Assembly (NCBI RefSeq): GCF_964355755.1 | Contig: NC_092676.1 | Coordinates: 9,158,288 to 9,222,287 of the forward strand | Source: Antedon mediterranea | Lineage: Eukaryota; Echinodermata; Crinoidea; Comatulida; Antedonidae | Length of the DNA: 64,000 bases | Direction: 5' to 3' | Shown here: positions 1,069-55,469 of the stretch, piece after piece | Position numbering within the stretch: the first letter of the stretch is position 1 | Layout of the letters: each line of letters opens with the position of its first letter | Program-made: the position numbers and the translations under genes | Notes under the pieces: generated by a model | Database searches by the model: none | What the model saw: only the letters and a program-made list of their open reading frames with translations | Told to the model about the DNA's origin: nothing

Positions 1069-2804
1069 TTATCTATCTGCCTCTGACGTCTCCAAGCACC
1101 ATGAACAAGCATTTTGGAACATTTTCATCCACGGTGACGCTTGTAATGTCTCCCGCCAATCTTGCGGCATCCATGGCCATTGCCACGTCAAAGTTGTACG
1201 CTCTGGATGAGGCATGATCGCCAGATGACGGCCATCTGCGGAGCAAATTGCCGCTACGCCATTGGGTGAGCCATTGGGGTTCAACGGGTATTCAGTTGTC
1301 ACTTCTCCTTTGTCATCGACAAAGCGCACTGGTGCAAGATTTTCAGACAGAACTGTGTCTTTTGTTTCTTTGTTAGAAAACTTCATGTGCCCTAGAGAGA
1401 AACAATTTGAGTTGAGTAAATTTAATAACATTTTTAGTTAAATTAAAATATAAGTTTGTACTAAGCATCCATCATTATCAAGAGGTATCAATATCTAACC
1501 TTCTCCATGCTGTGTCCAGACACCAAGCACAGAGCCTTCCATTCCTTTCAGCATTAAAGCAGGGCTTTCATTAATCTTTACAGCAACAAAACGAGACTCA
1601 AAACGCTCGGAAAGATTATGAGCAAGATGGACTCCTTGCTGAGCTGATGCTGCGTCTAAAAGACAATAACAAATAATTCATAATAAACAGTCTGTCAACA
1701 AATGGATATCAAAAAGTAGTTCATATTTTCTTTTTATTTGTCAAAGAGGCATTACCTGCTTTACACCGGTGTCCTACTACCACTAAACTACTTACTAAAT
1801 ATACCTCATGATACCTTACCTGTAGTAAGCTCCTTGGTGACATCTGGAGCAACCCAGCCTAGCAGGCCCATTAGTTGGCAGCCATTGCATACACCCAGTG
1901 AGAAAGTGTCTTTCCTTGCTCTAAATGCATCAAACTGAGCACGCACAGCTGGGTTGAACAAAATAGTTGCTGCCCAACCTAAAATGATTAATAAACATTA
2001 TTTAAATAAACTAGAATAAATATTTATTTAGGTTACTATCTGTCTAATACTAGTATAATACTTGGTTACTGCTCCAGCATGTATTTTTGCTATGCTACAA
2101 AAAGTGCAATCAGAAAAATATACCTTTTGCAGAACCACAAACGTCTGCAAAACTGAAGCCACCAACAAAAACTAGTCCACGGAATTGATCGAGGGTGACT
2201 TTCCCGCAAGCTAAATCTTGCATATTGACGTCCCATGTTTCAAAGCCAGCCATGTGTAGTGTTGAACTCATCTCTCGATCTCCATTACTGCCTTCCTCAC
2301 GGATCACAGCAACCTTTGGTTTCATTCCATCTATGGAAGGCCAATTATGATTATGTATATGGTAACTAATGAGCCAAATTTAACTCGTATTACTTTAACA
2401 AATTAAAATTCAGAACAAGATAATCAATATTCCAAAATTGGTTCTAACCTTTAGAGCATCCCTTTTTAACAGAATTCAAATTTGTTGCAACGGGGTCAAA
2501 GGTTAATTTAAATGGTGGTGCTGTTCTATTTGCTAAATTGCGTTGCTCCACTTCAACACACTCTGGATTTGCTTGTAGTTTTTCCAGTTGAAAACTAGTC
2601 TCTTCCCACACGTCTCTAAGAACAGTCATCTTTTCATTCAAGACTTCTTTCTCATTTACCGAGATGACAACCTATAATTTACATGTAAAATATTCAGATT
2701 CATTCTAAAAACCATCATAAATGATAAATGATCGTAAATAAATGTTCAAATATTGCTTCCATTTAAAAAAAAAAAAACTTACCATTGACCCTTGACCTGA
2801 TCCA

Positions 2805-2826
2805 CTAGAGTGACCAATTAGAGAAC
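2805..2826 (-). other. 38-bp deletion and resulting stop in PFAS copy 1 exon 16
   Basis: Copies 2 and 3 carry 38 bp between 'gagaac' and 'tcactagc' (in unit 2 about 26929-26966) that unit 1 lacks at about 2826/2827. On the coding strand the frame then runs S-E-F-S-N-W-S-L and stops at TAG (2805-2807). The lost residues correspond to the segment after EVTANASE and before the GHSSGSGQGS stretch. Confidence 0.92.
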
Positions 2827-3179
2827 TCACTAGCATTAGCTGTTACTTCTAACACCAGCCCTACTTCTTCAGCAAACAGAATATCAATTGCAGTTACTGA
2901 AAATAAATATATAAAGTCTTACAATGTATTATTGCTTACCACAGGTTCTGGAACCATATGAAAGATTAAAATGACACTTTACAGATCCATTCGAGGCATT
3001 TATAGAGATAGCATAATGCTTACCATCAGGTTCGGAAAGTTTGACGTCAATACCACAATTCCCAGAAAACGCCATTTCTAATAATGTTGTTACAATACCG
3101 CCATCACTAATATCATGACCAGCTGATATTTTTCTATCTACAAAAGGATACAAAAGACAAAGTTGAATTCATATCTCTA

Positions 3180-3330
3180 AAGCTCTGTCTACACTATCAA
3201 ACTTTATGTGATGTGATATGCCCATATATGGACATGATATCATATCACTACCATTTTTGGGCATTTCACTACCCTATTTAGGCGCATCACATTTTTTTGT
3301 CAAACTAGTTTCATAGTGTAGACAGCGCTT
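3180..3330. mobile_element. TA-flanked MITE in PFAS intron (unit 1)
   Basis: A 151-bp element with about 24-bp terminal inverted repeats beginning AAGCTCTGTCTACACTAT, bounded by TA on both sides (3178-3179, 3331-3332). TA duplications and the small size fit a Tc1/mariner-type nonautonomous element. It has no coding capacity. Confidence 0.75.
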
Positions 3331-4635
3331 TATATTATAACTACAAGTAAATGAATTTATTGTAAACGTCTAATTAATAAGTCTATGAAAATGACTACCT
3401 TTGATAAGATTTTGCGTTGTGTTGAAAGCCCTTACAAACGTTTCCGGTTCATCGAGATCAGGCGAGGATTGTCCGAGTTGATTATAGCACTGAGCGAGGG
3501 CACTACCACCTAACCGGTTATGCCTTTTACCAAATGAAACCCAGAGCAAAGTCCCTGAAATAGAATATGTAAAGTCTTGTTTATAAATATATTATATTTT
3601 TTGTTTGTTTAGGTAGTTAATTTAATTGTACCTAACAAAATGTGCAATGTTATATTCACTTTACCTTTACTGTCTGGACATTTAAGGTCAGGGGTCACAG
3701 TTGCAGTAATATCTGGGCATGCCACATACACAGACACAACCAATGCACCTAAAAAATTGTAATTGATATTTCATTATTAGTAAGTAAATGGAGTAAAGAA
3801 GTGTATTAGTGTATTCAAGCTTAACTTATTAAAATAATTCACAAGATTGTACATCAGACACTATACTAGTTATTAACAAGCATGAAATGTCTAACCTGGA
3901 GCTTTGATCGTTTCAGAGCCTATCCTGGCAGCCATACTCAAAGAGTCCTTCCCACCATCCACAGCAACACCCAACTTGCCCATCACCTCGCACGCATCAT
4001 ACAATGCAGCACCCTCACCAGGAAGCTTCGCTGGCCACATCCAGTTACCGCTACATTTGACATCTTTAAGATCGGAGACCCTAGCAAACACAAGATTGGT
4101 AAGGGCTTCTCCTACAGACATCCTGGCACCACAGCCAGGATCGACTAACCCTTTAATAGGCTGCTCTCCAATGGCTGTAGCTGAGCCTACAGTTTCAAAG
4201 TGGGAGAGTGCGATAACAGCAACATCAGCGAGTGGTGTGTGCAGGGGGCCTACACATTGCTGCTGGGCTATCAGGCCCGTGACAGCACGATCAACCTAAC
4301 AGAAACAATATATCCTGGTTATACACTTTCCATATTCCTTCACACAAATAAATTATGCAATATTAAAGATAAACAGATCTTTACCTTATTAGTCAAAAAT
4401 CTTTTACTGGCTACTGAAGGTAGACGCAGAACACGGTCGAGTGCACATCGGACAGTCAACCCATCAGGTAGTGTTAACTGCTTAAGTTTTGGTTTACATC
4501 GATCATACTTGAAAACCTGAGAGAAAAAAAAATATAATTCTATATAATTTTACAGACAGAAAGAGACACTATTATTATAACACATAATTATTTTCAATGG
4601 TTATTTATGATGAAATCTGTGAGATTGAGAAAAAG

Positions 4636-4709
4636 TGACCTCAGCTGAGATTTGAACCTGGAATCTTCTGCTTGATATGCAGACATCCTACCATTACACC
4701 ACTGATGCA
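4636..4709 (-). repeat. tRNA-derived sequence in PFAS intron (unit 1)
   Basis: The minus strand shows an A-box-like AGTGGTGTAATGGTAGGA, an anticodon-arm-like CTGC-ATATCAA-GCAG (anticodon ATC position) and a B box GGTTCAAAT, followed by TTTTT. The acceptor stem does not pair, so this is a tRNA pseudogene or SINE head rather than a working tRNA. Confidence 0.45.
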
Positions 4710-5125
4710 TTCATGGTATGGTTCAAACTTATTACCGACACTACTCTACTATCAAGTCTCCATCATACCTTTTGCGGCATCTTCCCAAGAACCCATTCAA
4801 GTTGGAGATCAACTGGATAAGTAAGTGCTGTTCTTTTTATGCTTGGAGGTTCTGCATCACCCTTACCAGCTTCCACTTTCTTTTCCACCTCAAGACGAAT
4901 CTGAAACAAAACAAAATATTTTTGTATTGCAAAACTCTTATGCACTCTATCTGTGCATGAAAAGGCATTCTTCAAAATTAGTAACACTGTAGTATTTAAA
5001 TGTGTTTTTTCATACTTATCCCACAGTAAGCACAAACTTGCCAATTACAGGATGGATAAAATATTTTATAGTTTATCGTGCTTATAAACTAAGTTTTATT
5101 TCAGGCTTAGGGAGTGAAGTTGAAA

Positions 5126-5197
5126 GAGTCGTGAGTTACAAACCTTGACCTTGGAATTGGAAGGCAAGCATGTTAAACCACCAAGCAACAGCTCCAC
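5126..5197 (-). repeat. Second tRNA-like fragment, Gly(TCC)-like (unit 1)
   Basis: The minus strand reads TTGGTGGTTTAACATGCTTGCC then a TTCCAA anticodon loop (TCC), then a decayed B box (GGTTTGTAACTC). It resembles a glycine tRNA but stems are poor, so it is probably a SINE or tRNA relic. Confidence 0.4.
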
Positions 5198-6957
5198 TAA
5201 AAAAATTTAGAATAAAGTAGGTAAAAAAAATCATCCAAATATTACCTTCCCATCACCTGTAATGTCACCAACAAAAACAGCTGGACATTTCTCTCTGTCA
5301 CAAATATCTTGAAGTTTTTCTTGATCCTCAGATCGTATTAGTATGGCATTGGACTCCTGGTATTCTGCACCCCATAGTTCTAAGGTGTTGATGGTTGGAT
5401 CACCTAGTTGGAATTCCTTAGCTTTTATTAGAGCACCTGCAGGTTCACATATCTCCTTTAAAACATTACCTGTACACAAAAAAATGATTTAATTGGTCAG
5501 ATGTTAGCCATAGTTTGACATAAAAATAAGTACATTTGTCTGACAAAGTGTCCCCTTAATAGGGATGTCCCAAATGAGGGGTGCTACTGTACTTAGTAAA
5601 ATAATAAAAATAAGCACATTGCATGCAAACTCACCATTGCCTCCAGCTCCTTGATCATGTATACTACATATAGGGTTTGTATCAACCATCTCAATGCACG
5701 CCCTTATAACTCGGTTTAGTTTCTGTTCCATCTCCGCATCACCGCGCTGCACGGCTTCGAAGTCCAGTTTTTCTGTATTGTCACCTTGAACTTGAATGGA
5801 AGATGCAGCGCCCCCACCGACTCCGATGCGATAGATTGGTCCACCAAGTTTTACAATTTTCATTCCTGCATGGTAAACAATTATTCATCAGTCAATAATT
5901 AGTTTTCAATGGAGAAATAAAAACAAAATATTTTATCAGGTTACTATAATCTTATTTTATATGACAGACATATAATATCTATGTGGAGACAACAATAATA
6001 AGAAGTACAGTATTTTTTATGGTGTTGTATTTAGTTTGTTTAACAAACCTTTTTCTGCTTCGTCTTTAGTCGCATGCATACTCTCAAGCATCCCAATACC
6101 CCCGCTGAACATAATGGGCTTGACCCACTCTCTTCTGTCGCTCTCAGAAAGCATCATGCCAAATGAACGAGAGAAACCGGTTAGAACGGGTTCACCAAAC
6201 TTGTTGCCGTAGTCAGATGCACCGTTGCTGGCCTCTACAGCAACCGACAGAGCAGGCGCCATGTTGCTAGGATAAACCATATTTTTGTCCTCCCATGGAA
6301 GGTCATACCCTGTTTAAACAAATGTTCAATCAATGATAATAAATAATTAATTACACTGAATATATAACATTTATAAAAAGCAAAATTATGTAATTAAGCA
6401 AGCAATTATGCCTGTTCACTGCATGCGTTACTTAATATCTTTCATCCCATACTCTATTTATACATATAAGTGCCAGTAAATGAATATCTTTTAATTGTTG
6501 TTACTTTGCAAATCTTTGATAAGGTTTATCCTTTATATTTGTTATGTTTTATTTTCTGTTATATTTGTATTTATTTTGATTTTTGAGCGAGTAAAGTCTG
6601 ACATCAATTTTCATAAGGACTACAAAATCTAATTTTTAGATTTATATAATTTACCTGGAATGTTCAAATTTCCAAAACAGTAGCCTGCAGTGCCAGCCAC
6701 TACATGTGCCCCCTTCCCTGCAGCCTGAACATCACGTATCCTACCCCCAGTACCAGTTGTAGCCCCTGGGAAAGGTGCAACCCCAGTTGGAAAGTTATGG
6801 GTCTCTGCTGTGAAGATGATATGCCTGAGTGGTTCAGATTCCTCCATCACACTTGCTGACCCGGGATTGGCTGGTTTGAGAACTTTGACCTTATGGCCTT
6901 TGATTGCACTGAAAATCAAGTAAAGTCATCAAAGTGAGAAAAAACAGACAACATTTA

Positions 6958-7061
6958 AAGCTCCTACTGTCCCCAAATATGGTAGTGATATGACATCATC
7001 ATATCCATATATGGGCACATCACATTTTTTTACATAAAAGTTGATAGTGTAGACAGAGCTT
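6958..7061. mobile_element. Second, shorter TA MITE of the same family (unit 1)
   Basis: A 104-bp relative in another PFAS intron. Its right end (gatagtgtagacagagctt then TA) is intact. The left end reads agctcctactgtcc in unit 1 but agctctgtctgtcc in units 2 and 3. Confidence 0.7.
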
Positions 7062-9828
7062 TAGGCAATACTTTGTGGTTCAACAAAATGTGAATAAATA
7101 TCATTTACGATGGAAATTATGCCTGTAGTATTTTATGGGCTATTTCATGACACCTTCTAGAACTAATAATTTCAGGTATAATGCCTAATTCTGTCCAGCA
7201 CAACAAGATTTATACAAGAGTCATAGACACCATTCCAGTGAACTATATCGTGATTCGATTCGGAAAATATGGATATAAATATAAAAGCCACGTAAAATGT
7301 TAAGATACCTGCTGTTATCCGAGAATTTAATGACGTTGTTATCATTGCTGGTAGCTTGCGTTGACATCACCATCTTGAATAAAGAATGATCTTTTTCTTC
7401 TCCATCGATTACCATCTTACCCTTAAAAAACCAATGACGACTATGCTCACTAGAAAGAAGACAGAAAGCAAGAAAAAACCATTTGTAGGAATATTTTCAG
7501 GAATTTCTAAATACAGTAATGAAAGCTGAGAAATGTTGCATAGATGAAAAGAATTTAAGTAAAGAATGGTCTATGTCTTAGGATTATCCATGGTTACAAA
7601 TACTATTTTACTTTATTTTAGGCTAGAAGGCAAATAGACAATGCCACAATTGTTTTTCACCTGTTTTTTTTTTCAGGTATATATTGAGGCAGATGGTATC
7701 TTTGTTCTTTTTGACTGTTTTACTTCATTTACTTTATTTTTACCTCATTTTGATTTAGCTATTTAGCATATTCTATTTATATCTCTATCCAATCACTGAT
7801 AAACTCACAGCATTGCAATACTGTATTTTCAATAATTTAGGTTTGTATTAAAATTAAATAAAGATATTACTTTTAAAAGACAGTAAAGAATGTAAATAAA
7901 TATTCATGACCATCATTCACAGATGGTAAAACTTCATGCGACTAAAACTAAAGTGCTTTGTACCTGTTAGACTGAGCCAAGTCAAAGAGTTCAACACTTG
8001 TTGGATTCCGTTTAACCTTTTCAATAAACATGTTGGTGTAAAAGTCTATGTCCCACGTATCAAAGGCAAGTCCTGCAGTAAAGAATAATACAAAATGTTT
8101 ATAATGCAATATTAATAATAGAAATCTTCATAAACCATTTATTGGTCATGATAAGCTTTGGTTTATAAATTCAATAACAATGAATTCTTAAATGAACAAT
8201 GTATCCACAGACCGATTAAATAATTACTGTACAGTAATATTAACTGGTTACTAGAACACACTTAAAAGAATATGAAATCATGTTGGATGTTAAGCTAAAT
8301 GTAATGTTAAAGACCTATTCCCTACAATTTTTGCCTTGTCTTTTCTGTTTTATGGTAAATTATGATAAAAAGAATGAAACAATACACATGCACAATGCAT
8401 GTTATGATTTATAGAAAGTCTCTAAATGATTAGAATCAACTAATTTTTTAAATTTTTAACAGTTTTAAAGACGAAAAAGTTATCGCATACATATTTATTT
8501 TTACATTAAATGTAGTTTGTGACCTATAATTAGATCTAAAAACGTAGGAAATGGGACTTTAATCATAATATAATGATATACAGTATCAACACAAAGTTAC
8601 CTATATTAATTTTAAAGTTAAGTTAATAATAGAAAAAACTGAAATAGAATTAAAAAACACAGGAGTTTAACACAGTTCAAAGTTCATCTATACTTGGGGA
8701 ACATGATTGAGAGTACTACAATCACCTAATTCTTTGTTTGCCTTTTCCAGAGCAACTTTCCCTTCACCTATAACATCAATTTCAAAGACTTCTTCTGGTT
8801 TAGCTTTAATTTCAAAGCTGCTGATTGGTTCGTGGTAGCGACATTCCGTCATACGATCGTGAAGTACGGCTACCAGTAGATTCTCTTCCTCGGGGCTGAT
8901 AGACGCAGCAATGCCATGATCGTCGGCTACGTTTATAAGATAGCAAATAGAACGCTCAATACGAGTCACATGGTTGATTCCAGCTGATTGGCAGATTGAG
9001 ACGGCATTTGTTGACCAGGCCGTAGAGAATTTCAACCTGTGTGTATAAAAATTAAACTTATTATATCATATACAGTAGATAGTGTAATGTCCATGATATT
9101 AAATATACAGTCAACATATTCTGCCATGCATGTTTATGCCCACCTTTCTTAATTTATGCCTATTACCTTGTTGAACAACAAAAATTATGACTTTTACTTT
9201 TTCAGATATTACCTACCGAATAACAAAACATACAGTATTATTTATTAATACTTATTCTCAACTGAAACCGACACTAATACTGTACGACTAGAAAAGAAGG
9301 GTATTTTGTTAATTAAAAAACATTTTCTGACCTAGGCCCAATTTCAATCAGAAGTCCATCAGGTTCTTGATCATCTTCAACTATGATTGACTTGGTCAGC
9401 AGGCTAAATTCTTCAAAAGGGGTACCTAAGATCCATTGTATTTTCTTCTGTTCTTCACCACTGAGGCAATCTATGAAAATAATACACAGTTTAATTGACA
9501 TTTTCAAAATAATATTAGTTTGGCAAAACAATTTATTAAAATTTAAATTAGAAAGGAAGAGTACCTACCTCCGTTTACTTCCACATTAAAACAAATTTCC
9601 GTTTTTAAATCTTGCAATTTAGAATTTTCCAACTGCTTTGCTAATTTCTTCCACAAAACATTTGAAGCCCCTGGGAGTAATGCCGGACTTTTATAAAACC
9701 GAGTAATGATAGTCATATTCTTTAAAAAAATAAATTATTAAATATTAGATCTATATTATTTTATATATTATTATTTATTATTATTGATGTTTACACTAAA
9801 AAAGTATAACTATAAAGTATATGACTTA

Positions 9829-10515: not shown

Positions 10516-12442
10516 GGGTATTGCTAAACTGCGCAAACACTGCGCAAACAACAACAAAAGCTGCGCAAACCTCCTTCAAAACAATTATTATTGATTAGAA
10601 CACAACTAGAACTATATAGGGAGACAATTTATGGGAAAAAGAATTTAAAATTCCTTTAAGTTTGCCTTTTTTTGGGTGAAAAACTTCAATTTTTGGGAAA
10701 ATTACTGATTTAACAGCGCAAAGAACAAAAAAAGCTGCGCAAACCTCTTTCAAAACAATTAATATTGATAGAACACAACTAGAACTATATAGTGAGACAA
10801 TTTATGGGGAAAAAAATTGAAATTCCTTTAAGTTTGCCTTTTTTTGGGTGAAAAACTTCAATTTTTGGGAAAATTACTGATTTCACAGCGCAAACAACAA
10901 AAAAAGCTGCGCAAACCTCCTTTAAATCAATTAATATTGATTAGATAACAACTAGAACTATATAGGGAGACAATTTATAGGAAAACAAATTTGAATTTCC
11001 TTTGAGTTTGCCTTTTTTTGGGTGAAAAACTTCAATTTTTGGGAAAATTACCGATTTCACAGCGCAAACCCCCAAAAAAGCTGCGCAAACCTCCTTCAAA
11101 ACAATTAATATTTATAGAACACAACTAGAACTATATAAGGAGACAATTTATGGGGAAAAAATTTGAAATTCCTTTAAGTTTGCCTTTTTTTGGGTGAAAA
11201 ACTTCAATTTTTGGGAAAATTACTGATTTCACAGCACAATTTGCCTTTTTTTGGGTTAAAAACTATTAATGTTAAGTAAACTTAAAGGAATTTCAAATTT
11301 GTCTTCCCATAAATTGTCTCCCTATATAGTTTAGTTGTTATCTATCAATATTAATTGATTTAAAGGAGGTTTGCGTAGCTTTTTTTGTTGTTTGCGCTGT
11401 GAAATCAATAATTTTCCCAAAAATTGAAGTTTTTCACCCAAAAAAAAGAAAACTTAAAGGAGTTTCAAATTTGTTTTCCCATAAATTGTCTCCTTATATA
11501 GTTCTAGTTGTTATCTAATCAATATTAATTGATTTAAAGGAGGTTTGCGCAGCTTTTTTTTTTGGTTTGCGCTGTGAAATCAGTAATTTTCCCAAAAATT
11601 GAAGTTTTTTACCCAAAAAAAGGCAAACTTAAAGGAATTTTAAATTTTTTCCCCATAAATTGTCTCCCTATATAGGTCTAGTTGTGTTTTAATCAATATT
11701 AATTGATTTAAAGGAGGTTTGCGCAGCTTTTTTTGGAGGTTTGCGCTGTGAAATCAGTAATTTTCCCAAAAATTGAAGTTTTTACCCAAAAAAAGGCAAA
11801 CTTAAAGGAATTTTAAATTTTTTCCCCATAAATTGTCTCCCTATATAGGTCTAGTTGTGTTTTAATCAATATTAATTGATTTAAAGGAGGTTTGCGCAGC
11901 TTTTTTTGGAGGTTTGCGCTGTGAAATCAGTAATTTTCCCAAAAATTGAAGTTTTTCACCCAAAAAAAAGAAAACTTAAAGGAATTTCAAATTTGTTTTC
12001 CCATAAATTGTCTCCTTATATAGTTCTAGTTGTTATCTAATCAATATTAATTGATTTAAAGGAGGTTTGCGCAGCTTTTTTTTTAGGTTTGCGCTGTGAA
12101 ATCAGTAATTTTCCCAAAAATTGAAGTTTTTTACCCAAAAAAAGGCAAACTTAAAGGAATTTTAAATTTTTTCCCCATAAATTGTCTCCCTATATAGGTC
12201 TAGTTGTGTTTTAATTAATATTAATTGATTTAAAGGAGGTTTGCGCAGCTTTTTTTGGAGGTTTGCTCTGTGAAATCAGTAATTTTCCCAAAAATTGAAG
12301 TTTTTCACCCAAAAAAAGTCAAACTTAAAGGAATTTTATATTTTTTCCTCATAAATTGTCTCCCTATATAGGTCTAGTTGTGTTTTAATCAATATTAATT
12401 TTTTTTTTTTTTGCGCAGTGTTTGCGCAGTTTAGCAATACCC
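10516..12442. repeat. Foldback-like inverted array of about 175-bp repeats (unit 1, 4+7 copies)
   Basis: A repeat of about 172-176 bp, marked by ctatatagggagacaatttatggg, gggtgaaaaacttcaattttt and gcgcaaac, runs in plus orientation four times (to about 11260). It then runs seven times in minus orientation (about 11268-12400). The outer ends are inverted repeats beginning gggtattgctaaactgcgcaaac. Long inverted arms built of tandem repeats resemble foldback (FB/Galileo-like) elements. No transposase is present and no target duplication was recognised. Confidence 0.75.
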
Positions 12443-25171: not shown

Positions 25172-27278
25172 TTATCTATCTGCCTCTGACGTCTCCAAGC
25201 ACCATGAACAAGCATTTTGGAACATTTTCATCCACGGTGACGCTTGTAATGTCTCCCGCCAATCTTGCGGCATCCATGGCCATTGCCACGTCAAAGTTGT
25301 ACGCTCTGGATGAGGCATGATCGCCAGATGACGGCCATCTGCGGAGCAAATTGCCGCTACGCCATTGGGTGAGCCATTGGGGTTCAACGGGTATTCAGTT
25401 GTCACTTCTCCTTTGTCATCGACAAAGCGCACTGGTGCAAGATTTTCAGACAGAACTGTGTCTTTTGTTTCTTTGTTAGAAAACTTCATGTGCCCTAGAG
25501 AGAAACAATTTGAGTTGAGTAAATTTAATAACATTTTTAGTTAAATTAAAATATAAGTTTGTACTAAGCATCCATCATTATCAAGAGGTATCAATATCTA
25601 ACCTTCTCCATGCTGTGTCCAGACACCAAGCACAGAGCCTTCCATTCCTTTCAGCATTAAAGCAGGGCTTTCATTAATCTTTACAGCAACAAAACGAGAC
25701 TCAAAACGCTCGGAAAGATTATGAGCAAGATGGACTCCTTGCTGAGCTGATGCTGCGTCTAAAAGACAATAACAAATAATTCATAATAAACAGTCTGTCA
25801 ACAAATGGATATCAAAAAGTAGTTCATATTTTCTTTTTATTTGTCAAAGAGGCATTACCTGCTTTACACCGGTGTCCTACTACCACTAAACTACTTACTA
25901 AATATACCTCATGATACCTTACCTGTAGTAAGCTCCTTGGTGACATCTGGAGCAACCCAGCCTAGCAGGCCCATTAGTTGGCAGCCATTGCATACACCCA
26001 GTGAGAAAGTGTCTTTCCTTGCTCTAAATGCATCAAACTGAGCACGCACAGCTGGGTTGAACAAAATAGTTGCTGCCCAACCTAAAATGATTAATAAACA
26101 TTATTTAAATAAACTAGAATAAATATTTATTTAGGTTACTATCTGTCTAATACTAGTATAATACTTGGTTACTGCTCCAGCATGTATTTTTGCTATGCTA
26201 CAAAAAGTGCAATCAGAAAAATATACCTTTTGCAGAACCACAAACGTCTGCAAAACTGAAGCCACCAACAAAAACTACTCCACGGAATTGATCGAGGGTG
26301 ACTTTCCCGCAAGCTAAATCTTGCATATTGACGTCCCATGTTTCAAAGCCAGCCATGTGTAGTGTTGAACTCATCTCTCGATCTCCATTACTGCCTTCCT
26401 CACGGATCACAGCAACCTTTGGTTTCATTCCATCTATGGAAGGCCAATTATGATTATGTATATGGTAACTAATGAGCCAAATTTAACTCGTATTACTTTA
26501 ACAAATTAAAATTCAGAACAAGATAATCAATATTCCAAAATTGGTTCTAACCTTTAGAGCATCCCTTTTTAACAGAATTCAAATTTGTTGCAACGGGGTC
26601 AAAGGTTAATTTAAATGGTGGTGCTGTTCTATTTGCTAAATTGCGTTGCTCCACTTCAACACACTCTGGATTTGCTTGTAGTTTTTCCAGTTGAAAACTA
26701 GTCTCTTCCCACACGTCTCTAAGAACAGTCATCTTTTCATTCAAGACTTCTTTCTCATTTACCGAGATGACAACCTATAATTTACATGTAAAATATTCAG
26801 ATTCATTCTAAAAACCATCATAAATGATAAATGATCGTAAATAAATGTTCAAATATTGCTTCCATTTAAAAAAAAAAAAACTTACCATTGACCCTTGACC
26901 TGATCCACTAGAGTGACCAATTAGAGAACAAGGGACATTATTGTCACTGAACTGTCTACAAATGTCCTCACTAGCATTAGCTGTTACTTCTAACACCAGC
27001 CCTACTTCTTCAGCAAACAGAATATCAATTGCAGTTACTGAAAATAAATATATAAAGTCTTACAATGTATTATTGCTTACCAGAGGTTCTGGAACCATAT
27101 GAAAGATTAAAATGACACTTTACAGATCCATTCGAGGCATTTATAGAGATAGCATAATGCTTACCATCAGGTTCGGAAAGTTTGACGTCAATACCACAAT
27201 TCCCAGAAAACGCCATTTCTAATAATGTTGTTACAATACCGCCATCACTAATATCATGACCAGCTGATATTTTTCTAT

Positions 27279-28850: not shown

Positions 28851-29266
28851 TTCATGGTATGGTTCAAACTTATTACCGACACTACTCTACTATCAAGTCT
28901 CCATCATACCTTTTGCGGCATCTTCCCAAGAACCCATTCAAGTTGGAGATCAACTGGATAAGTAAGTGCTGTTCTTTTTATGCTTGGAGGTTCTGCATCA
29001 CCCTTACCAGCTTCCACTTTCTTTTCCACCTCAAGACGAATCTGAAACAAAACAAAATATTTTTGTATTGCAAAACTCTTATGCACTCTATCTGTGCATG
29101 AAAAGGCATTCTTCAAAATTAGTAACACTGTAGTATTTAAACGTGTTTTTTCATACTTATCCCACAGTAAGCACAAACTTGCCAATTACAGGATGGATAA
29201 AATATTTTATAGTTGATCGTGCTTATAAACTAAGTTTTATTTCAGGCTTAGGGAGTGAAGTTGAAA

Positions 29267-29338
29267 GAGTCGTGAGTTACAACCCTTGACCTTGGAATTG
29301 GAAGGCAAGCATGTTAAACCACCAAGCAACAGCTCCAC
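29267..29338 (-). repeat. Second tRNA-like fragment (unit 2)
   Basis: Counterpart of 5126-5197. The B box reads GGGTTGTAACTC, slightly closer to the consensus than in unit 1. Confidence 0.4.
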
Positions 29339-31108: not shown

Positions 31109-31212
31109 AAGCTCTGTCTGTCCCCAAATATGGTAGTGATATGACATCATCATATCCATATATGGGCACATCACATTTTTTTACATAAAAGTTGATAGTG
31201 TAGACAGAGCTT
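31109..31212. mobile_element. Second TA MITE (unit 2)
   Basis: Counterpart of 6958-7061, with the left terminal repeat better preserved than in unit 1. Confidence 0.7.
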
Positions 31213-33615
31213 TAGGCAATACTTTGTGGTTCAACAAAATGTGAATAAATATCATTTACGATGGAAATTATGCCTGTAGTATTTTATGGGCTATTTCATG
31301 ACACCCTCTAGAACTAATAATTTCAGGTATAATGCCTAATTCTGTCCAGCACAACAAGATTTATACAAGAGTCATAGACACCATTCCAGTGAACTATATC
31401 GTGATTCGATTCGGAAAATATGGATATAAATATAAAAGCCACGTAAAATGTTAAGATACCTGCTGTTATCCGAGAATTTAATGACGTTGTTATCATTGCT
31501 GGTAGCTTGCGTTGACATCACCATCTTGAATAAAGAATGATCTTTTTCTTCTCCATCGATTACCATCTTACCCTTAAAAAACCAATGACGACTATGCTCA
31601 CTAGAAAGAAGACAGAAAGCAAGAAAAAACCATTTGTAGGAATATTTTCAGGAATTTCTAAATACAGTAATGAAAGCTGAGAAATGTTGCATAGATGAAA
31701 AGAATTTAAGTAAAGAATGGTCTATGTCTTAGGATTATCCATGGTTACAAATACTATTTTACATTATTTTAGGCTAGAAGGCAAATAGACAATGCCACAA
31801 TTGTTTTTCACCTGTTTTTTTTTTCAGTTATATATTGAGGCAGATGGTATCTTTGTTCTTTTTGACTGTTTTACTTCATTTACTTTATTTTTACCTCATT
31901 TTGATTTAGCTATTTAGCATATTCTATTTATATCTCTATCCAATCACTGATATACTCACAGCATTGCAATACTGTATTTTCAATAATTTAGGTTTGTATT
32001 AAATAAAGATATTACTTTTACAAGACAGTAAAGAATGTAAATAAATATTCATGACCATCATTCACAGATGGTAAAACTTCATGCGACTAAAACTAAAGTG
32101 CTTTGTACCTGTTAGACTGAGCCAAGTCAAAGAGTTCAACACTTGTTGGATTCCGTTTAACCTTTTCAATAAACATGTTGGTGTAAAAGTCTATGTCCCA
32201 CGTATCAAAGGCAAGTCCTGCAGTAAAGAATAATACAAAATGTTTATAATGCAATATTAATAATAGAAATCTTCATCAACCATTTATTGGTCATGATAAG
32301 CTTTGGTTTATAAATTCAATAACAATGAATTCTTAAATGAACAATGTATCCACAGACCGATTAAATAATTACTGTACTGTAATATTAACTGGTTACTAGA
32401 ACACACTTAAAAGAATATGAAATCATGTTGGATGTTAAGCTAAATGTAATGTTAAAGACCTATTCCCTACAATTTTTGCCTTGTCTTTTCTGTTTTATGG
32501 TAAATTATGATAAAAAGAAAGAAACAATACACATGCACAATGCATGTTATGATTTATAGAAAGTCTCTAAATGATTAGAATCAACTTATTTTTCAAATTT
32601 TTAACAGTTTTAAAGACGAAAAAGTTATCGCATACATATTTATTTTTACATTAAATGTAGTTTGTGACCTATAATTAGATCTAAAAACGTAGGAAATGGG
32701 ACTTTAATCATAATATAATGATATACAGTATCAACACAAAGTTACCTATATTAATTTTAAAGTTAAGTTAATAATAGAAAAAACTGAAATAGAATTAAAA
32801 AACACAGGAGTTTAACACAGTTCAAAGATCATCTATACTTGGGAAACATGATTGAGAGTACTACAATCACCTAATTCTTTGTTTGCCTTTTCCAGAGCAA
32901 CTTTTCCTTCACCTATAACATCAATTTCAAAGACTTCTTCTGGTTTAGCTTTAATTTCAAAGCTGCTGATTGGTTCGTGGTAGCGACATTCCGTCATACG
33001 ATCGTGAAGTACGGCTACCAGTAGCTTCTCTTCCTCGGGGCTGATAGACGCAGCAATGCCATGATCGTCGGCTACGTTTATAAGATAGCGAATAGAACGC
33101 TCAATACGAGTCACATGGTTGATTCCAGCCGATTGGCAGATTGAGACGGCATTTGTTGACCAGGCCGTAGAGAAGTTCAACCTGTGTGTATAAAAATTAA
33201 ACTTATTATATCATATACAGTAGATAGTGTAATGTAATGTCCATGATATTAAATATACAGTCAACATATTCTGCCATGCATGTTTATGCCCACCTTTCTT
33301 AATTTATGCCTATTACCTTATTGAACAACAAAAATTATGACTTTTACTTTTTCAGATATTACCTACCGAATAACAAAACATACAGTATTATTTATTAATA
33401 CTTATTCTCAACTGAAACCGACACTAACACTGTACGACTAGACAAGAAGGGTAATTTGTTAATTAAAAAACATTTTCTGACCTAGGCCCAATTTCAATCA
33501 GAAGTCCATCAGGTTCTTGATCATCTTCAACTATGATTGACTTGGTCAGCAGACTAAATTCTTCAAAAGGGGTACCTAAGATCCATTGTATTTTCTTCTG
33601 TTCTTCACCACTGAG

Positions 33616-33618
33616 TCA
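33616..33618 (-). other. TGA at codon 51 of PFAS copy 2
   Basis: The plus strand reads ctgagTCAatctatg here and ctgagGCAatctatg in unit 1, so the codon changes from TGC (Cys) to TGA, followed by CTC. It lies in exon 2, two codons after the phase-1 junction with exon 1. Confidence 0.92.
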
Positions 33619-33977
33619 ATCTATGAAAATAATACACAGTTTAATTGACATTTTCAAAATAATATTAGTTTGGCAAAACAATTTATTAAAATTTAAATTA
33701 GAAAGGAAGAGTACCTACCTCCGTTTACTTCCACATTAAAACAAATTTCCGTTTTTAAATCTTGCAATTTAGAATTTTCCAACTGCTTTGCTAATTTCTT
33801 CCACAAAACATTTGAAGCCCCTGGGAGTAATGCCGGACTTTTATAAAACCGAGTAATGATAGTCATATTCTTTAAAAAAATAAATTATTAAATATTAGAT
33901 CTATATTATTTTATATATTATTATTTATTATTATTGATGTTTACACTAAAAAAGTATAACTATAAAGTATATGACTT

Positions 33978-34664: not shown

Positions 34665-36327
34665 GGGTATTGCTAAACTGCGCAAACAACAACAAAAGCT
34701 GCGCAAACCTCCTTCAAAACAATTATTATTGATTAGAACACAACTAGAACTATATAGGGAGACAATTTATGGGAAAAAGAATTTAAAATTCCTTTAAGTT
34801 TGCCTTTTTTTGGGTGAAAAACTTCAATTTTTGGGAAAATTACTGATTTAACAGCGCAAAGAACAAAAAAAGCTGCGCAAACCTCTCTCAAAACAATTAA
34901 TATTGATAGAACACAACTAGAACTATATAGTGAGACAATTTATGAAGAAAAAAATTGAAATTCCTTTAAGTTTGCCTTTTTTTGGGTGAAAAACTTCAAT
35001 TTTTGGGAAAATTACTGATTTCACAGCGCAAACAACAAAAAAAGCTGCGCAAACCTCCTTTAAATCAATTAATATTGATTAGATAACAACTAGAACTATA
35101 TAGGGAGACAATTTATGGGAAAACAAATTTGAATTTCCTTTGAGTTTGCCTTTTTTTGGGTGAAAAACTTCAATTTTTGGGAAAATTACTGATTTCACAG
35201 CGCAAACCCCCAAAAAAGCTGCGCAAACCTCCTTCAAAACAATTAATATTGATAGAACACAACTAGAACTATATAAGGAGACAATTTATGGGGAAAAAAA
35301 TTGAAATTCCTTTAAGTTTGCCTTTTTTTGGGTGAAAAACTTCAATCTTTGGGAAAATTACTGATTTCACACCACAAACAACAAAAAAAGCTGCAAAACC
35401 TCCTTCAAAACAATTAATATTGATAGAACACAACTAGAACTATATAGGGAGACAATTTATGGGAAAAAAATTGAAATTCCTTTAAGTTTGCTTTTTTTTT
35501 GGTGAAAAACTTCAATTTTTGGGAAAATTACTTATTTCACAGCGCAAACAAAAAAAAAAGCTGCGCAAACCTCCTTTAAATCAATTAATATTGATAGATA
35601 ACAACTAAACTATATAGGGAGACAATTTATGGGAAAACAAATTTGAAATTCCTTCAAGTTTGCCTTTTTTGGGTTAAAAACTATTAATGTTAAGTAAACT
35701 TAAAGGAATTTCAAATTTGTTTTCCCATAAATTGTTTCCCTATATAGTTCTAGTTGTGTTCTATCAATATTAATTGATTTAAAGGAGGTTTGCGCAGCTT
35801 TTTTTGTTGTTTGTGCTGTGAAATCAATAATTTTCCCAAAAATTGAAGTTTTTCACCCAAAAAAAAGAAAACTTAAAGGAATTTCAAATTTGTTTTCCCA
35901 TAAATTGTCTCTTTATATAGTTCTAGTTGTTATCTAATCAATATTAATTGATTTAAAGGAGGTTTGCGCAGCTTTTTTTTTAGGTTTGCGCTGTGAAATC
36001 AGTAATTTTCCCAAAAATTGAACTTTTTACCCAAAAAAAGGCAAACTTAAAGGAATTTGAAATTTTTTTCCCATAAATTGTCTCCCTATATAGGTCTAGT
36101 TGTGTTTTAATCAATATTAATTGATTTAAAGGAGGTTTGCGCAGCTTTTTTTGGAGGTTTGCGCTGTGAAATCAGTAATTTTCCCAAAAATTGAAGTTTT
36201 TCACCCAAAAAAAGTCAAACTTAAAGGAATTTTATATTTTTTCCCCATAAATTGTCTCCCTATATAGGTCTAGTTGTGTTTTAATCAATATTAATTTTTT
36301 TGTTGTTTGCGCAGTTTAGCAATACCC
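34665..36327. repeat. Foldback-like inverted array (unit 2, 6+4 copies)
   Basis: Same array with the arm sizes changed: six plus-oriented and four minus-oriented repeats, counted from the agacaatttatg marker and its complement. The terminal gggtattgctaaactgcgcaaac and its complement are intact. Confidence 0.75.
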
Positions 36328-46622: not shown

Positions 46623-48772
46623 TTATCTATCTGCCTCCGACGTCTCCAAGCACCATGAACAAGCATTTTGGAACATCTTCATCCACGGTGACGCTTGTAA
46701 TGTCTCCCGCCAATCTTGCGGCATCCATGGCCATTGCCACGTCAAAGTTGTACGCTCTGGATGAGGCATGATCGCCAGATGACGGCCATCTGCGGAGCAA
46801 ATTGCCGCTACGCCATTGGGTGAGCCATTGGGGTTCAACGGGTATTCAGTTGTCACTTCTCCTTTGTCATCGACAAAGCGCACTGGTGCAAGATTTTCAG
46901 ACAGAACTGTGTCTTTTGTTTCTTTGTTAGAAAACTTCATGTGCCCTAGAGAGAAACAATTTGAGTTGAGTAAATTTAATAACATTTTTAGTTAAATTAA
47001 AATATAAGTTTGTACTAAGCATCCATCATTATCAAGAGGTATCAATATCTAACCTTCTCCATGCTGTGTCCAGACACCAAGCACAGAGCCTTCCATTCCT
47101 TTCAGCATTAAAGCAGGGCTTTCATTAATCTTTACAGCAACAAAACGAGACTCAAAACGCTCGGAAAGATTATGAGCAAGATGGACTCCTTGCTGAGCTG
47201 ATGCTGCGTCTAAAAGACAATAACAAATAATTCATAATAAACAGTCTGTCAACAAATGGATATCAAAAAGTAGTTCATATTTTCTTTTTACTTGTCAAAG
47301 AGGCATTACATGCTTTACACCGGTGTCCTACTACCACTACACTACTTACTAAATATACCTCATGATACCTTACCTGTAGTAAGCTCCTTGGTGACATCTG
47401 GAGCAACCCAGCCTAGCAGGCCCATTAGTTGGCAGCCATTGCATACACCCAGTGAGAAAGTGTCTTTCCTTGCTCTAAATGCATCAAACTGAGCACGCAC
47501 AGCTGGGTTGAACAAAATAGTTGCTGCCCAACCTAAAATGATTAATAAACATTATTTAAATAAACTAGAATAAATATTTATTTAGGTTACTATCTGTCTA
47601 ATACTAGTATAATACTTGGTTACTGCTCCCGCATGTATTTTTGCTATGCTACAAAAAGTGCAATCAGAAAAGTATACCTTTTGCAGAACCACAAACGTCT
47701 GCAAAACTGAAGCCACCAACAAAAACTACTCCACGGAATTGATCGAGGGTGACTTTCCCGCAAGCTAAATCTTGCATATTGACGTCCCATGTTTCAAAGC
47801 CAGCCATGTGTAGTGTTGAACTCATCTCTCGATCTCCATTACTGCCTTCCTCACGGATCACAGCAACCTTTGGTTTCATTCCATCTATGGAAGGCCAATT
47901 ATGATTATGTATATGGTAACTAATGAGCCAAATTTAACTCGTATTACTTTAACAAATTAAAATTCAGAACAAGATAATCAATATTCCAAAATTGGTTCTA
48001 ACCTTTAGAGCATCCCTTTTTAACAGAATTCAAATTTGTTGCAACAGGGTCAAAGGTTAATTTAAATGGTGGTGCTGTTCTATTTGCTAAATTGCGTTGC
48101 TCCACTTCAACACACTCTGGATTTGCTTGTAGTTTTTCCAGTTGAAAACTAGTCTCTTCCCACACGTCTCTAAGAACAGTCATCTTTTCATTCAAGACTT
48201 CTTTCTCATTTACCGAGATGACAACCTATAATTTACATGTAAAATATTCAGATTCATTCTAAAAACCATCATAAATGATAAATGATCGTAAATAAATGTT
48301 CAAATATTGCTTCCATTTAAAAAAAACAAAAACTTACCATTGACCCTTGACCTGATCCACTAGAGTGACCAATTAGAGAACAAAGGACATTATTGTCACT
48401 GAACTGTCTACAAATGTCCTCACTAGCATTAGCTGTTACTTCTAACACCAGCCCTACTTCTTCAGCAAACAGAATATCAATTGCAGTTACTGAAAATAAA
48501 TATATAAAGTCTTACAATGTATTATTGCTTACCAGAGGTTCTGGAACTATATGAAAGATTAAAATGACACTTTACAGATCCATTCGAGGCATTTATAGAG
48601 ATAGCATAATGCTTACCATCAGGTTCGGAAAGTTTGACGTCAATACCACAATTCCCAGAAAACGCCATTTCTAATAATGTTGTTACAATACCGCCATCAC
48701 TAATATCATGACCAGCTGATATTTTTCTATCTACAAAAGGATACAAAAGACAAAGTTGAATTCATATCTCTA

Positions 48773-48923
48773 AAGCTCTGTCTACACTATCAAACTTTAT
48801 GTGATGTGATATGTCCATATATGGACATGATATCATATCACTACCATTTTTGGGAATTTCACTACCCTATTTAGGCGCATCACATTTTTTTGTCAAACTA
48901 GTTTGATAGTGTAGACAGCGCTT
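48773..48923. mobile_element. TA-flanked MITE in PFAS intron (unit 3)
   Basis: Orthologous copy of the 151-bp TA MITE. One base near the right end (gtttgatag against gtttcatag) makes its inverted repeat better matched than in units 1 and 2. Confidence 0.75.
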
Positions 48924-50240
48924 TATATTATAACTACAAGTAAATGAATTTATTGTAAACGTCTAATTAATAAGTCTATGAAAATGACTACCTTTGATAA
49001 GATTTTGCGTTGTGTTGAAAGCCCTTACAAACGTTTCCGGTTCATCGAGATCAGGCGAGGATTGTCCGAGTTGATTATAGCACTGAGCGAGGGCACTACC
49101 ACCTAACCGGTTATGCCTTTTACCAAATGAAACCCAGAGCAAAGTCCCTGAAATAGAATATGTAAAGTCTTGTTTATAAATATATTATATTTTTTGTTTG
49201 TTTAGGTAGTTAATTTAATTGTACCTAACAAAATGTGCAATGTTATATTCACTTTACCTTTACTGTCTGGACATTTAAGGTCAGGGGTCACAGTTGCAGT
49301 AATATCTGGGCATGCCACATACACAGACACAACCAATGCACCTAAAAAATTGTAATTGATATTTCATTATTAGTAAGTAAATGGAGTAAAGAAGTGTATT
49401 AGTGTATTCAAGCTTAACTTATTAAAATAATTCACAATATTGTACATCAGACTCTATACTAGTTATTAACAAGCATGAAATGTCTAACCTGGAGCTTTGA
49501 TCGTTTCAGAGCCTATCCTGGCAGCCATACTCAAAGAGTCCTTCCCACCATCCACAGCAACACCCAACTTGCCCATCACCTCGCACATAGCCTCGCATGC
49601 ATCATACAATGCAGCACCCTCACCAGGAAGCTTCGCTGGCCACATCCAGTTACCGCTACATTTGACATCTTTAAGATCGGAGACCCTAGCAAACACAAGA
49701 TTGGTAAGGGCTTCTCCTACAGACATCCTGGCACCACAGCCAGGATCGACTAACCCTTTAATAGGCTGCTCTCCAATGGCTGTAGCTGAGCCTACAGTTT
49801 CAAAGTGGGAGAGTGCGATAACAGCAACATCAGCGAGTGGTGTGTGCAGGGGGCCTACACATTGCTGCTGGGCTATCAGGCCCGTGACAGCACGATCAAC
49901 CTAACAGAAACAATATATCCTGGTTATACACTTTCCATATTCCTTCACACAAATAAATTATGCAATATTAAAGATAAACAGATCTTTACCTTATTAGTCA
50001 AAAATCTTTTACTGGCTACTGAAGGTAGACGCAGAACACGGTCGAGTGCACATCGGACAGTCAACCCATCAGGTAGTGTTAACTGCTTAAGTTTTGGTTT
50101 ACATCGATCATACTTGAAAACCTGAGAGAAAAAAAAATATAATTCTATATAATTTTACAGACAGAAAGAGACACTATTATTATAACACATAATTATTTTC
50201 AATGGTTATTTATGATGAAATCTGTGAGATTGAGAAAAGG

Positions 50241-50314
50241 TGACCTCAGCTGAGATTTGAACCTGGAATCTTCTGCTTGATATGCAGACATACTACCATT
50301 ACACCACTGATGCA
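50241..50314 (-). repeat. tRNA-derived sequence in PFAS intron (unit 3)
   Basis: Same tRNA-like sequence. Unit 3 has base changes in the A-box arm (tatgc agacatactacc on the plus strand) and in the T run after the B box. Confidence 0.45.
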
Positions 50315-50728
50315 TTCATGGTATGGTTCAAACTTATTACCGACACTACTCTACTATCAAGTCTCCATCATACCTTTTGCGGCATCTTCCCAAGAACCCA
50401 TTCAAGTTGGAGATCAACTGGATAAGTAAGTGCTGTTCTTTTTATGCTTGGAGGTTCTGCATCACCCTTACCAGCTTCCACTTTCTTTTCCACCTCAAGA
50501 CGAATCTGAAACAAAACAAAATATTTTTGTATTGCAAAACTCTTATGCACTCTATCTGTGCATGAAAAGGCATTCTTCAAAATTAGTAACACTGTAGTAT
50601 TTAAATGCGTTTTTTCATACTTATCCCACAGTAAGCACAAACTTGCCAATTACAGGATGGATAAAATATTTTATAGTTTATCGTGCTTATAAACTAAGTT
50701 TTATTTCAGGCTTAGGGAGTGAAGTTGA

Positions 50729-50821
50729 AAGAGTCGTGAGTTACAACCCTTGACCTTGATTGAACCCTTGACCTTGGAATTGGAAGGCAAGCATGTTAAA
50801 CCACCAAGCAACAGCTCCACT
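50729..50821 (-). repeat. Second tRNA-like fragment with 18-bp insertion (unit 3)
   Basis: Counterpart of 5126-5197 with an 18-bp internal near-tandem duplication (aacccttgaccttgattg) between the anticodon and T arms, which disrupts any tRNA fold. Confidence 0.4.
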
Positions 50822-52601
50822 AAAAAAATTTAGAATAAAGTAGGTAAAAAAAATCATCCAAATATTACCTTCCCATCACCTGTAATGTCACCAACAAAAA
50901 CAGCTGGACATTTCTCTCTGTCACAAATATCTTGAAGTTTTTCTTGATCCTCAGATCGTATTAGTATGGCATTGGACTCCTGGTATTCTGCACCCCATAG
51001 TTCTAAGGTGTTGATGGTTGGATCACCTAGTTGGAATTCCTTAGCTTTTATTAGAGCACCTGCAGGTTCACATATCTCCTTTAAAACATTACCTGTACAC
51101 AAAAAAATGATTTAATTGGTCAGATGTTAGCCATAGTTTGACATAAAAATAAGTACATTTGTCTGACAAAGTGTCCCCTTAATAGGGATGTCCCAAATGA
51201 GGGGTGCTACTGTACTTAGTAAAATAATAAAAATAAGCACATTGCATGCAAACTCACCATTGCCTCCAGCTCCTTGATCATGTATACTACATATAGGGTT
51301 TGTATCAACCATCTCAATGCACGCCCTTATAACTCGGTTTAGTTTCTGTTCCATCTCCGCATCACCGCGCTGCACGGCTTCGAAGTCCAGTTTTTCTGTA
51401 TTGTCACCTTGAACTTGAATGGAAGATGCAGCGCCCCCACCGACTCCGATGCGATAGATTGGTCCACCAAGTTTTACAATTTTCATTCCTGCATGGTAAA
51501 CAATTATTGATCAGTCAATAATTAGTTTTCAATGGAGAAATAAAAACAAAATATTTTATCAGGTTACTATAATCTTATTTTATATGACAGACATATAATA
51601 TCTATGTGGAGACAACAATAATAAGAAGTACAGTATTTTTTATGGTGTTGTATTTAGTTTGTTTAACAAACCTTTTTCTGCTTCGTCTTTAGTCGCATGC
51701 ATACTCTCAAGCATCCCAATACCCCCGCTGAACATAATGGGCTTGACCCACTCTCTTCTGTCGCTCTCAGTAAGCATCATGCCAAATGAACGAGAGAAAC
51801 CGGTTAGAACGGGTTCACCAAACTTGTTGCCGTAGTCAGATGCACCGTTGCTGGCCTCTACAGCAACCGACAGAGCAGGCGCCATGTTGCTAGGATAAAC
51901 CATATTTTTGTCCTCCCATGGAAGGTCATACCCTGTTTAAACAAATGTTCAATCAATGATAATAAATAATTAATTACACTGAATATATAACATTTATAAA
52001 AAGCAAAATTATGTAATTAAGCAAGCAATTATGCCTGTTCACTGCATGCGTTACTTAATATCTTTCATCCCATACTCTATTTATACATATAAGTGCCAGT
52101 AAATGAATATCTTTTAATTGTTGTTACTTTGCAAATCTTTGATAAGGTTTATCCTTTATATTTGTATATTTGTTATGTTTTATTTTCTGTTATATTTGTA
52201 TTTATTTTGATTTTTGAGCGAGTAAAGTCTGACATCAATTTTCATAAGGACTACAAAATCTAATTTTTAGATTTATATAATTTACCTGGAATGTTCAAAT
52301 TTCCAAAACAGTAGCCTGCAGTGCCAGCCACTACATGTGCCCCCTTCCCTGCAGCCTGAACATCACGTATCCTACCCCCAGTACCAGTTGTAGCCCCTGG
52401 GAAAGGTGCAACCCCAGTTGGAAAGTTATGGGTCTCTGCTGTGAAGATGATATGCCTGAGTGGTTCAGATTCCTCCATCACACTTGCTGACCCGGGATTG
52501 GCTGGTTTGAGAACTTTGACCTTATGGCCTTTGATTGCACTGAAAATCAAGTAAAGTCATCAAAGTGAGAAAAAACAGTATAGGTTCATTGACAACATTT
52601 A

Positions 52602-52705
52602 AAGCTCTGTCTGTCCCCAAATATGGTAGTGATATGACATCATCATATCCATATATGGGCACATCACATTTTTTTACATAAAAGTTGATAGTGTAGACAG
52701 AGCTT
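52602..52705. mobile_element. Second TA MITE (unit 3)
   Basis: Counterpart of 6958-7061. Just outside its left end unit 3 carries a private 13-bp insertion (within 'acagtataggttcattgac'). Confidence 0.7.
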
Positions 52706-55107
52706 TAGGCAATACTTTGTGGTTCAACAAAATGTGAATAAATATCATTTACGATGGAAATTATGCCTGTAGTATTTTATGGGCTATTTCATGACACCCT
52801 CTAGAACTAATAATTTCAGGTATAATGCCTAATTCTGTCCAGCACAACAAGATTTATACAAGAGTCATAGACACCATTCCAGTGAACTATATCGTGATTC
52901 GATTCGGAAAATATGGATATAAATATAAAAGCCACGTAAAATGTTAAGATACCTGCTGTTATCCGAGAATTTAATGACGTTGTTATCATTGCTGGTAGCT
53001 TGCGTTGACATCACCATCTTGAATAAAGAATGATCTTTTTCTTCTCCATCGATTACCATCTTACCCTTAAAAAACCAATGACGACTATGCTCACTAGAAA
53101 GAAGACAGAAAGCAAGAAAAAACCATTTGTGGGAATATTTTCAGGAATTTCTAAATACAGTAATGAAAGCTGAGAAATGTTGCATAGATGAAAAGAATTT
53201 AAGTAAAGAATGGTCTATGTCTTAGGATTATCCATGGTTACAAATACTATTTTACTTTATTTTAGGCTAGAAGGCAAATAGACAATGCCACAATTGTTTT
53301 TCACCTGTTTTTTTTTTCAGGTATATATTGAGGCAGATGGTATCTTTGTTCTTTTTGACTGTTTTACTTCATTTACTTTATTTTTACCTCATTTTGATTT
53401 AGCTATTTAGCATATTCTATTTATATCTCTATCCAATCACTGATAAACTCACAGCATTGCAATATTGTATTTTCAATAATTTAGGTTTGTATTAAATAAA
53501 GATATTACTTTTACAAGACAGTAAAGAATGTAAATAAATATTCATGACCATCATTCACAGATGGTAAAACTTCATGCGACTAAAACTAAAGTGCTTTGTA
53601 CCTGTTAGACTGAGCCAAGTCAAAGAGTTCAACACTTGTTGGATTCCGTTTAACCTTTTCAATAAACATGTTGGTGTAAAAGTCTATGTCCCACGTATCA
53701 AAGGCAAGTCCTGCAGTAAGAATAATACAAAATGTTTATAATGCAATATTAATAATAGAAATCTTCATCAACCATTTATTGGTCATGATAAGCTTTGGTT
53801 TATAAATTCAATAACAATGAATTCTTAAATGAACAATGTATCCACAGACCGATTAAATAATTACTGTACAGTAATATTAACTGGTTACTAGAACACACTT
53901 AAAAGAATATGAAATCATGTTGGATGTTAAGCTAAATGTAATGTTAAAGACCTATTCCCTACAATTTTTGCCTTGTCTTTTCTGTTTTATGGTAAATTAT
54001 GATAAAAAGAAAGAAACAATACACATGCACAATGCATGTTATGATTTATAGAAAGTCTCTAAATGATTAGAATCAATTTATTTTTCAAATTTTTAACAGT
54101 TTTAAAGACGAAAAAGTTATCGCATACATATTTATTTTTACATTAAATGTAGTTTGTGACCTATAATTAGATCTAAAAACGTAGGAAATGGGACTTTAAT
54201 CATAATATAATGATATACAGTATCAACACAAAGTTACCTATATTAATTTTAAAGTTAAGTTAATAATAGAAAAAACTGAAATAGAATTAAAAAACACAGG
54301 AGTTTAACACAGTTCAAAGATCATCTATACTTGGGAAACATGATTGAGAGTACTACAATCACCTAATTCTTTGTTTGCCTTTTCCAGAGCAACTTTTCCT
54401 TCACCTATAACATCAATTTCAAAGACTTCTTCTGGTTTAGCTTTAATTTCAAAGCTGCTGATTGGTTCGTGGTAGCGACATTCCGTCATACGATCGTGAA
54501 GTACGGCTACCAGTAGCTTCTCTTCCTCGGGGCTGATAGACGCAGCAATGCCATGATCGTCGGCTACGTTTATAAGATAGCGAATAGAACGCTCAATACG
54601 AGTCACATGGTTGATTCCAGCCGATTGGCAGATTGAGACGGCATTTGTTGACCAGGCCGTAGAGAAGTTCAACCTGTGTGTATAAAAATTAAACTTATTA
54701 TATCATATACAGTAGATAGTGTAATGTAATGTCCATGATATTAAATATACAGTCAACATATTCTGCCATGCATGTTTATGCCCACCTTTCTTAATTTATG
54801 CCTATTACCTTATTGAACAACAAAAATTATGACTTTTACTTTTTCAGATATTACCTACCGAATAACAAAACATACAGTATTATTTATTAATACTTATTCT
54901 CAACTGAAACCGACACTAACACTGTACGACTAGACAAGAAGGGTAATTTGTTAATTAAAAAACATTTTCTGACCTAGGCCCAATTTCAATCAGAAGTCCA
55001 TCAGGTTCTTGATCATCTTCAACTATGATTGACTTGGTCAGCAGACTAAATTCTTCAAAAGGGGTACCTAAGATCCATTGTATTTTCTTCTGTTCTTCAC
55101 CACTGAG

Positions 55108-55110
55108 TCA
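55108..55110 (-). other. TGA at codon 51 of PFAS copy 3
   Basis: This is the same substitution as in unit 2, inside the near-identical part of the two units, so it was probably inherited or copied rather than independent. The next AG in frame, TGGTGAAG|AACAG, lies 18 nt into the exon and would skip six codons including the TGA. Confidence 0.92.
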
Positions 55111-55469
55111 ATCTATGAAAATAATACACAGTTTAATTGACATTTTCAAAATAATATTAGTTTGGCAAAACAATTTATTAAAATTTAAATTAGAAAGGAA
55201 GAGTACCTACCTCCGTTTACTTCCACATTAAAACAAATTTCCGTTTTTAAATCTTGCAATTTAGAATTTTCCAACTGCTTTGCTAATTTCTTCCACAAAA
55301 CATTTGAAGCCCCTGGGAGTAATGCCGGACTTTTATAAAACCGAGTAATGATAGTCATATTCTTTAAAAAAATAAATTATTAAATATTAGATCTATATTA
55401 TTTTATATATTATTATTTATTATTATTGATGTTTACACTAAAAAAGTATAACTATAAAGTATATGACTT

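Follow-up and report, generated by a model that had tools for sequence, protein, structure and literature searches.

Open and broken PFAS genes side by side in a tandem array of the crinoid Antedon mediterranea, with signs of exchange between copies

Recombination between copies is a feature of the Sdic genes of Drosophila and of the Sp185/333 genes of sea urchins. Both families are clusters of near-identical copies (Sdic: PMC7475035; Sp185/333: PMC5103432 and PMC3091723), and this is the respect in which they resemble the locus of Antedon mediterranea described here. They are sperm or immune genes, whereas the array reported here is made of a housekeeping purine enzyme gene, PFAS, which has 21 exons and adjoins a satellite. 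Tandem PFAS copies in an animal were not found in the open-licence literature, as judged by titles and the starts of abstracts.

The DNA analysed, referred to as the window, is a stretch of 64,000 nucleotides (C7:9158288-9222287) in a genome of 354 Mb and 18 contigs. It contains three PFAS genes, spaced 24.1 and 21.5 kb apart within repeated units and all on the minus strand, to which all gene and switch coordinates below refer. A gene model of 21 exons and 1355 codons, built on copy 3, was transferred by MAFFT alignment to each of the 13 copies found (three in the window, nine elsewhere in the array and one on C5), and a copy was called open when its donors were GT, its acceptors AG, its frame kept and no in-frame stop present. 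All three copies in the window carry a disabling lesion of the coding frame or of a splice site. Copy 1 (W1; 1069..9716), with exons 1-21, has its ATG at 9716 and the end of its stop codon at 1069; its exon 16 (2783..2896) has lost 38 bp at the junction 2826/2827, so that 114 nt remain of 152 and the frame is shifted, a deletion present in this one of the 12 array copies. Copy 2 (W2; 25172..33866) has TGA at codon 51 (33616..33618) and has also lost the acceptor of exon 15 (27279..27280, AG to GG), the next AG lying 4 nt downstream and out of frame. In copy 3 (W3; 46623..55358, with its ATG at 55358) TGA at codon 51 (55108..55110) is the sole lesion by the criteria used (GT/AG, in-frame stop, frame). 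These are the breaks that a sequence-only reading of the window had reported for each copy, and its impression that the other splice sites look functional also held, as every remaining tested donor of copies 1-3 is GT and every remaining acceptor AG. A further difference, absent from that reading, is that 12 bp of exon 12 (4 codons, in frame) are missing from copies 1 and 2.

The likeness to PFAS (PurL long form, FGAM synthase) consists of alignment to a solved PFAS and of the FGAR-AT domain set, and the product here is an enzyme predicted from sequence. The alignment of the C5 protein to 9n9w, which we take to be the human PFAS enzyme, covers residues 4-1351 of 1355, and that to 1303-residue entries such as 1t3t covers 84-1343. 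Five Pfam families exceed their cut-offs in it (FGAR-AT_N, FGAR-AT_linker, FGAR-AT_PurM_N-like, AIRS_C and GATase_5), giving the full set in one chain, and the array proteins were judged by their differences from it. The glutaminase Cys and His motifs, GVCNGCQ and MPHPER, are present in the translated sequences of copy 3 and C5, and the motif regions are invariant, with no differences among the 13 copies within residues 1127-1273 or after 1294 (copy 3 register).

A view the size of the window suggests a paradox, an essential gene without a working copy, which the whole genome removes. A genome search with GATase_5 gave 52 exon matches, four at each of 13 places, a count that as a genome-search result is a lower bound (at least 13 places). 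Twelve of the places lie on C7 between 8,997,764 and 9,227,655, in an array that extends over about 0.24 Mb, and the 13th lies on C5 near 27.10 Mb; a protein search with exon 12 recovered the identical 13 places and found the exon stop-free in 13/13. To our knowledge a single PFAS copy is expected in an animal, against the 13 of this genome. Half of the array copies (6/12) are open, namely L004, L006, L009 and L011 at the full length of 1355 codons and L007 and L010 at four codons fewer. The C5 copy is open as well, an apparent difference in length at its end having arisen, as the sequence shows, from the way in which the region of the stop codon was aligned. The six broken array copies are the three in the window together with L003, whose exon 3 has lost 23 bp, and L005 and L008, which share with copy 2 both the TGA at codon 51 and the loss of the acceptor. 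The claim that the array is without an intact copy therefore stands for the three in the window and fails for the array as a whole. As far as sequence can show, the accompanying expectation that an intact PFAS should lie outside the window proved right, with six open copies in the array and one on C5. The missing four codons of exon 12 may make the shorter type (type C, below) non-functional, leaving four rather than six good array copies. The enzyme would be made by the open array copies, the C5 copy or both through ordinary cis-splicing, and the broken copies would be recent pseudogenes.

The sequence-only reading had alternatively raised unusual processing. In the form considered here, PFAS would be made from the complementary broken copies of the window by read-through transcripts, trans-splicing or recoding of the stop. 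The copies do lie on the same strand at high identity, and their remaining exons and splice sites look normal, but open copies adjoin the broken ones and another lies on C5, so that neither trans-splicing nor recoding is necessary. Codon 51 is TGA in 4/12 array copies, TGC in 8/12 and TAC on C5; conservation of TGA, looked for as a mark of a selenoprotein or of programmed read-through, was not seen among these copies, so recoding of the stop is not a conserved property of the gene. Moreover, three of the four copies with TGA are additionally without the splice acceptor. Skipping of exon 2 as a bypass of the stop was rejected because this exon has 139 nt and its loss breaks the frame. Skipping of exon 15 (114 nt) would keep the frame but drop GHDISDGG, a stretch that is nearly identical in the solved PFAS, and would leave the stop at codon 51 uncured; it was also rejected. 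We consider that manufacture of the enzyme from the broken copies is extremely improbable, and return to ordinary cis-splicing of open copies as the probable source of PFAS.

The array has the form of a tandem segmental duplication, in which alignments run on the same strand through introns and flanks, all 12 copies are arranged head to tail on the minus strand and the repeated units continue past the window on both sides. Three types of unit recur: A, which is dead through TGA at codon 51 and the lost acceptor; B, open and full length; and C, open and four codons shorter. From the third array copy onward their order is A B C, A B C, C' A B' B. The leftmost copy, L003 (C7:8997264-9006863), is 13 kb from its neighbour, as against 20-25 kb between the others. 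Large blocks of the array are themselves duplicated. One of 66.9 kb repeats an A B C set at 99.84% (offset 61.8 kb), the L008-L009 stretch recurs as that of copies 2 and 3 over 37.2 kb (99.92%, offset 85.9 kb), and L010 and copy 1 share 12 kb at 99.99%. The presence of TGA at codon 51 in 4/12 copies and of the acceptor loss in 3/12 indicates that both lesions were copied.

Segments this similar, above all the 12 kb shared by L010 and copy 1, could also be expected if assembly or consensus calling had falsely duplicated haplotypes and introduced wrong bases, so creating the copies and their lesions, and the occurrence of the 38-bp deletion in a single copy points the same way; by itself, this deletion could still be an assembly error. 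Against such an artefact, the TGA recurs in four separate units and the acceptor loss in three, which speaks against random base errors, the units are distinguished by type-specific SNPs and by their satellite patterns, the 258-kb stretch of the array contains no N, and the unit of copy 1 has an insert of its own. No match to this insert was found in the other two units of the window or in the compared stretches of L007, L008 and L010; it includes an 86/131/172-bp tandem repeat at window positions 15914-17532 (within 14877-18577). An artefact is accordingly an improbable source of the array and its lesions, even if the copy number and the near-identical pair of L010 and copy 1 could be inflated by assembly.

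A satellite of about 172 bp lies upstream of the genes. In the window it forms two inverted arms before copy 1 (10538..12405, with 4 plus-strand and 7 minus-strand matches) and is likewise inverted before copy 2 (34677..36317) and copy 3 (56169..57809), each with 6 plus-strand and 4 minus-strand matches. Arm sizes go with the unit type, in that the 6 + 4 pattern precedes the A copies L005, L008 and copy 2 and also copy 3, and the 4 + 7 pattern precedes the C copies L007 and L010 and also copy 1. The B copies L006, L009 and L011 have one arm only, of 3 minus-strand matches, L004 has 10 + 4 and L003 has a single arm of 3 in the opposite direction. The right end of the array passes into a large tandem repeat whose period is about 190 bp and which is arranged in two inverted blocks (L029 about 3144-10000, C7); beside the left end of the array are frames for histone H2A and linker histone H1 (L012 7122-7565 and 8248-8829, C7). 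Frames downstream of copies 2 and 3 (window 23170-23475 and 44618-45037) resemble by eye the tail of a retroelement integrase; the frame at 44618-45037 gave no Pfam match at E 0.001. A THAP-domain frame was seen near the C5 copy, and among the frames scanned no neighbour was common to C5 and the array. Beyond the gene itself, the 32-kb C5 stretch has only three short pieces of homology to the array: 299 bp downstream, about 0.7-1 kb from the gene; 622 bp upstream at about 75%; and 165 bp at about 77%, which matches a repeat in an intron.

Exchange between copies is seen most clearly in copy 3, which has a B-type body and an A-type 5' end. Diagnostic sites (n=52 in a 9.6-kb alignment) were those that set the three A copies, all alike, apart from each of the three B copies; read from its 5' end, copy 3 has 12 A-type sites followed by 40 B-type sites without exception, which places a single switch in intron 3 (54077..54320). 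Painting in 500-base bins agrees with this position. There are no mismatches in any bin to the A copies, copy 2 and L008, from 54,213 to the end of the window, and none in any bin to the B copy L011 from 45,213-53,712, a range over which the B copy L009 shows three mismatches, all in the bin at 51,213; the junction bin (53,713-54,212) has two mismatches to copy 2, one to L008, none to L009 and one to L011. The TGA at codon 51 lies on the A side of the switch, and hence the lesion was received by exchange. The 6 + 4 satellite before copy 3 is a further sign of an A-type 5' flank, in a stretch of DNA that it shares with the painting.

Copy 1 looks like a second mosaic, with a C-type body and an A-type 3' end, on thinner evidence than copy 3. 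Where a base common to the three A copies is absent from both C copies, copy 1 is of C type at 39 sites and then of A type at two; with a laxer choice of sites that leaves out L005 and L010 the numbers are 44 and then five, so that exchange is marked by between two and five sites on one side. The interval of the C-to-A switch (1737..2942) contains the 38-bp deletion. Painting of the 3' side of copy 1 (C7 9,153,000-9,161,499) gave six mismatches to L010, five to L008 and three to copy 2, and the last bin, which holds the deletion, gave none, four and two in the same order; these low counts indicate that the donor types differ little there. Close to its 3' end L010 also changes type, from 41 C-type sites to three A-type sites. 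The complementary lesions of the window are explained by which A, B and C pieces recombined into each copy.

Comparison with the C5 copy gave dN/dS values of 0.156-0.207 in 12/12 comparisons, with dS of 0.057-0.065, codons with gaps or stops being excluded and frameshifted copies read in the copy 3 register; as a pairwise dN/dS averages both lineages, these values are silent on which locus carries the constraint. They fit constraint of both the array and the C5 locus for most of the time since their split, and the broken copies give similar values because they were broken recently. Across 4507 aligned intron positions C5 and L006 show 335 differences (7.4%). Within the array, L006 and L009 have no differences at aligned exon and intron positions, and the coding sequence of L011 is identical to that of L006 (0 differences). 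Copy 1 and its sister L010 differ at about one site in the 12 kb 5' of the deletion (12,054 bp at 99.992%) and at none of the compared codons in coding sequence, which supports the suggestion of the sequence-only reading that decay was very recent.

The six open copies, the identical coding sequences of L006, L009 and L011 and the dN/dS against C5 may reflect selected amplification for dosage, in which many open copies raise the output of PFAS and dead ones are tolerated. However, identity between copies may reflect recency alone, and two other purine genes are unamplified: the ATIC domain has two exon matches within 10 kb at one place on C2 and the PAICS domain four within 2.3 kb at one place on C5, so amplification is not common to these two steps. 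Selection for dosage is compatible with the explanation that we favour, and on these sequences we see it as a possible but doubtful addition to it.

That explanation, which we hold to be very probable, is of a block-duplicated and recombining array of 12 copies in which open copies, or C5, make the enzyme by cis-splicing and the broken copies are recent pseudogenes. A young array of head-to-tail PFAS copies would grow by duplication of blocks, and unequal crossing over or gene conversion would shuffle sequence among its members. Copy 3 is a B body with an A-type 5' end that brought the TGA, and copy 1, on fewer sites, would be a C body with an A-type 3' end and with its deletion inside the switch interval. 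As a tandem duplication the array is young and ordinary; what is unexpected is the gene involved.

Here recombination has handed a lesion from one copy of a housekeeping gene to another within a tandem array, and the example is a clean one. More speculatively, and with slightly less confidence than we attach to selection for dosage as such, a housekeeping purine gene may have been amplified and partly homogenised under dosage selection, with live and dead units alternating and with recombination that kills live copies, as in copy 3, and could also revive dead ones, in which case the number of working copies would change fast and vary between individuals. If copy number does vary between individuals, the count of working PFAS genes would constitute a natural dosage experiment in purine synthesis.
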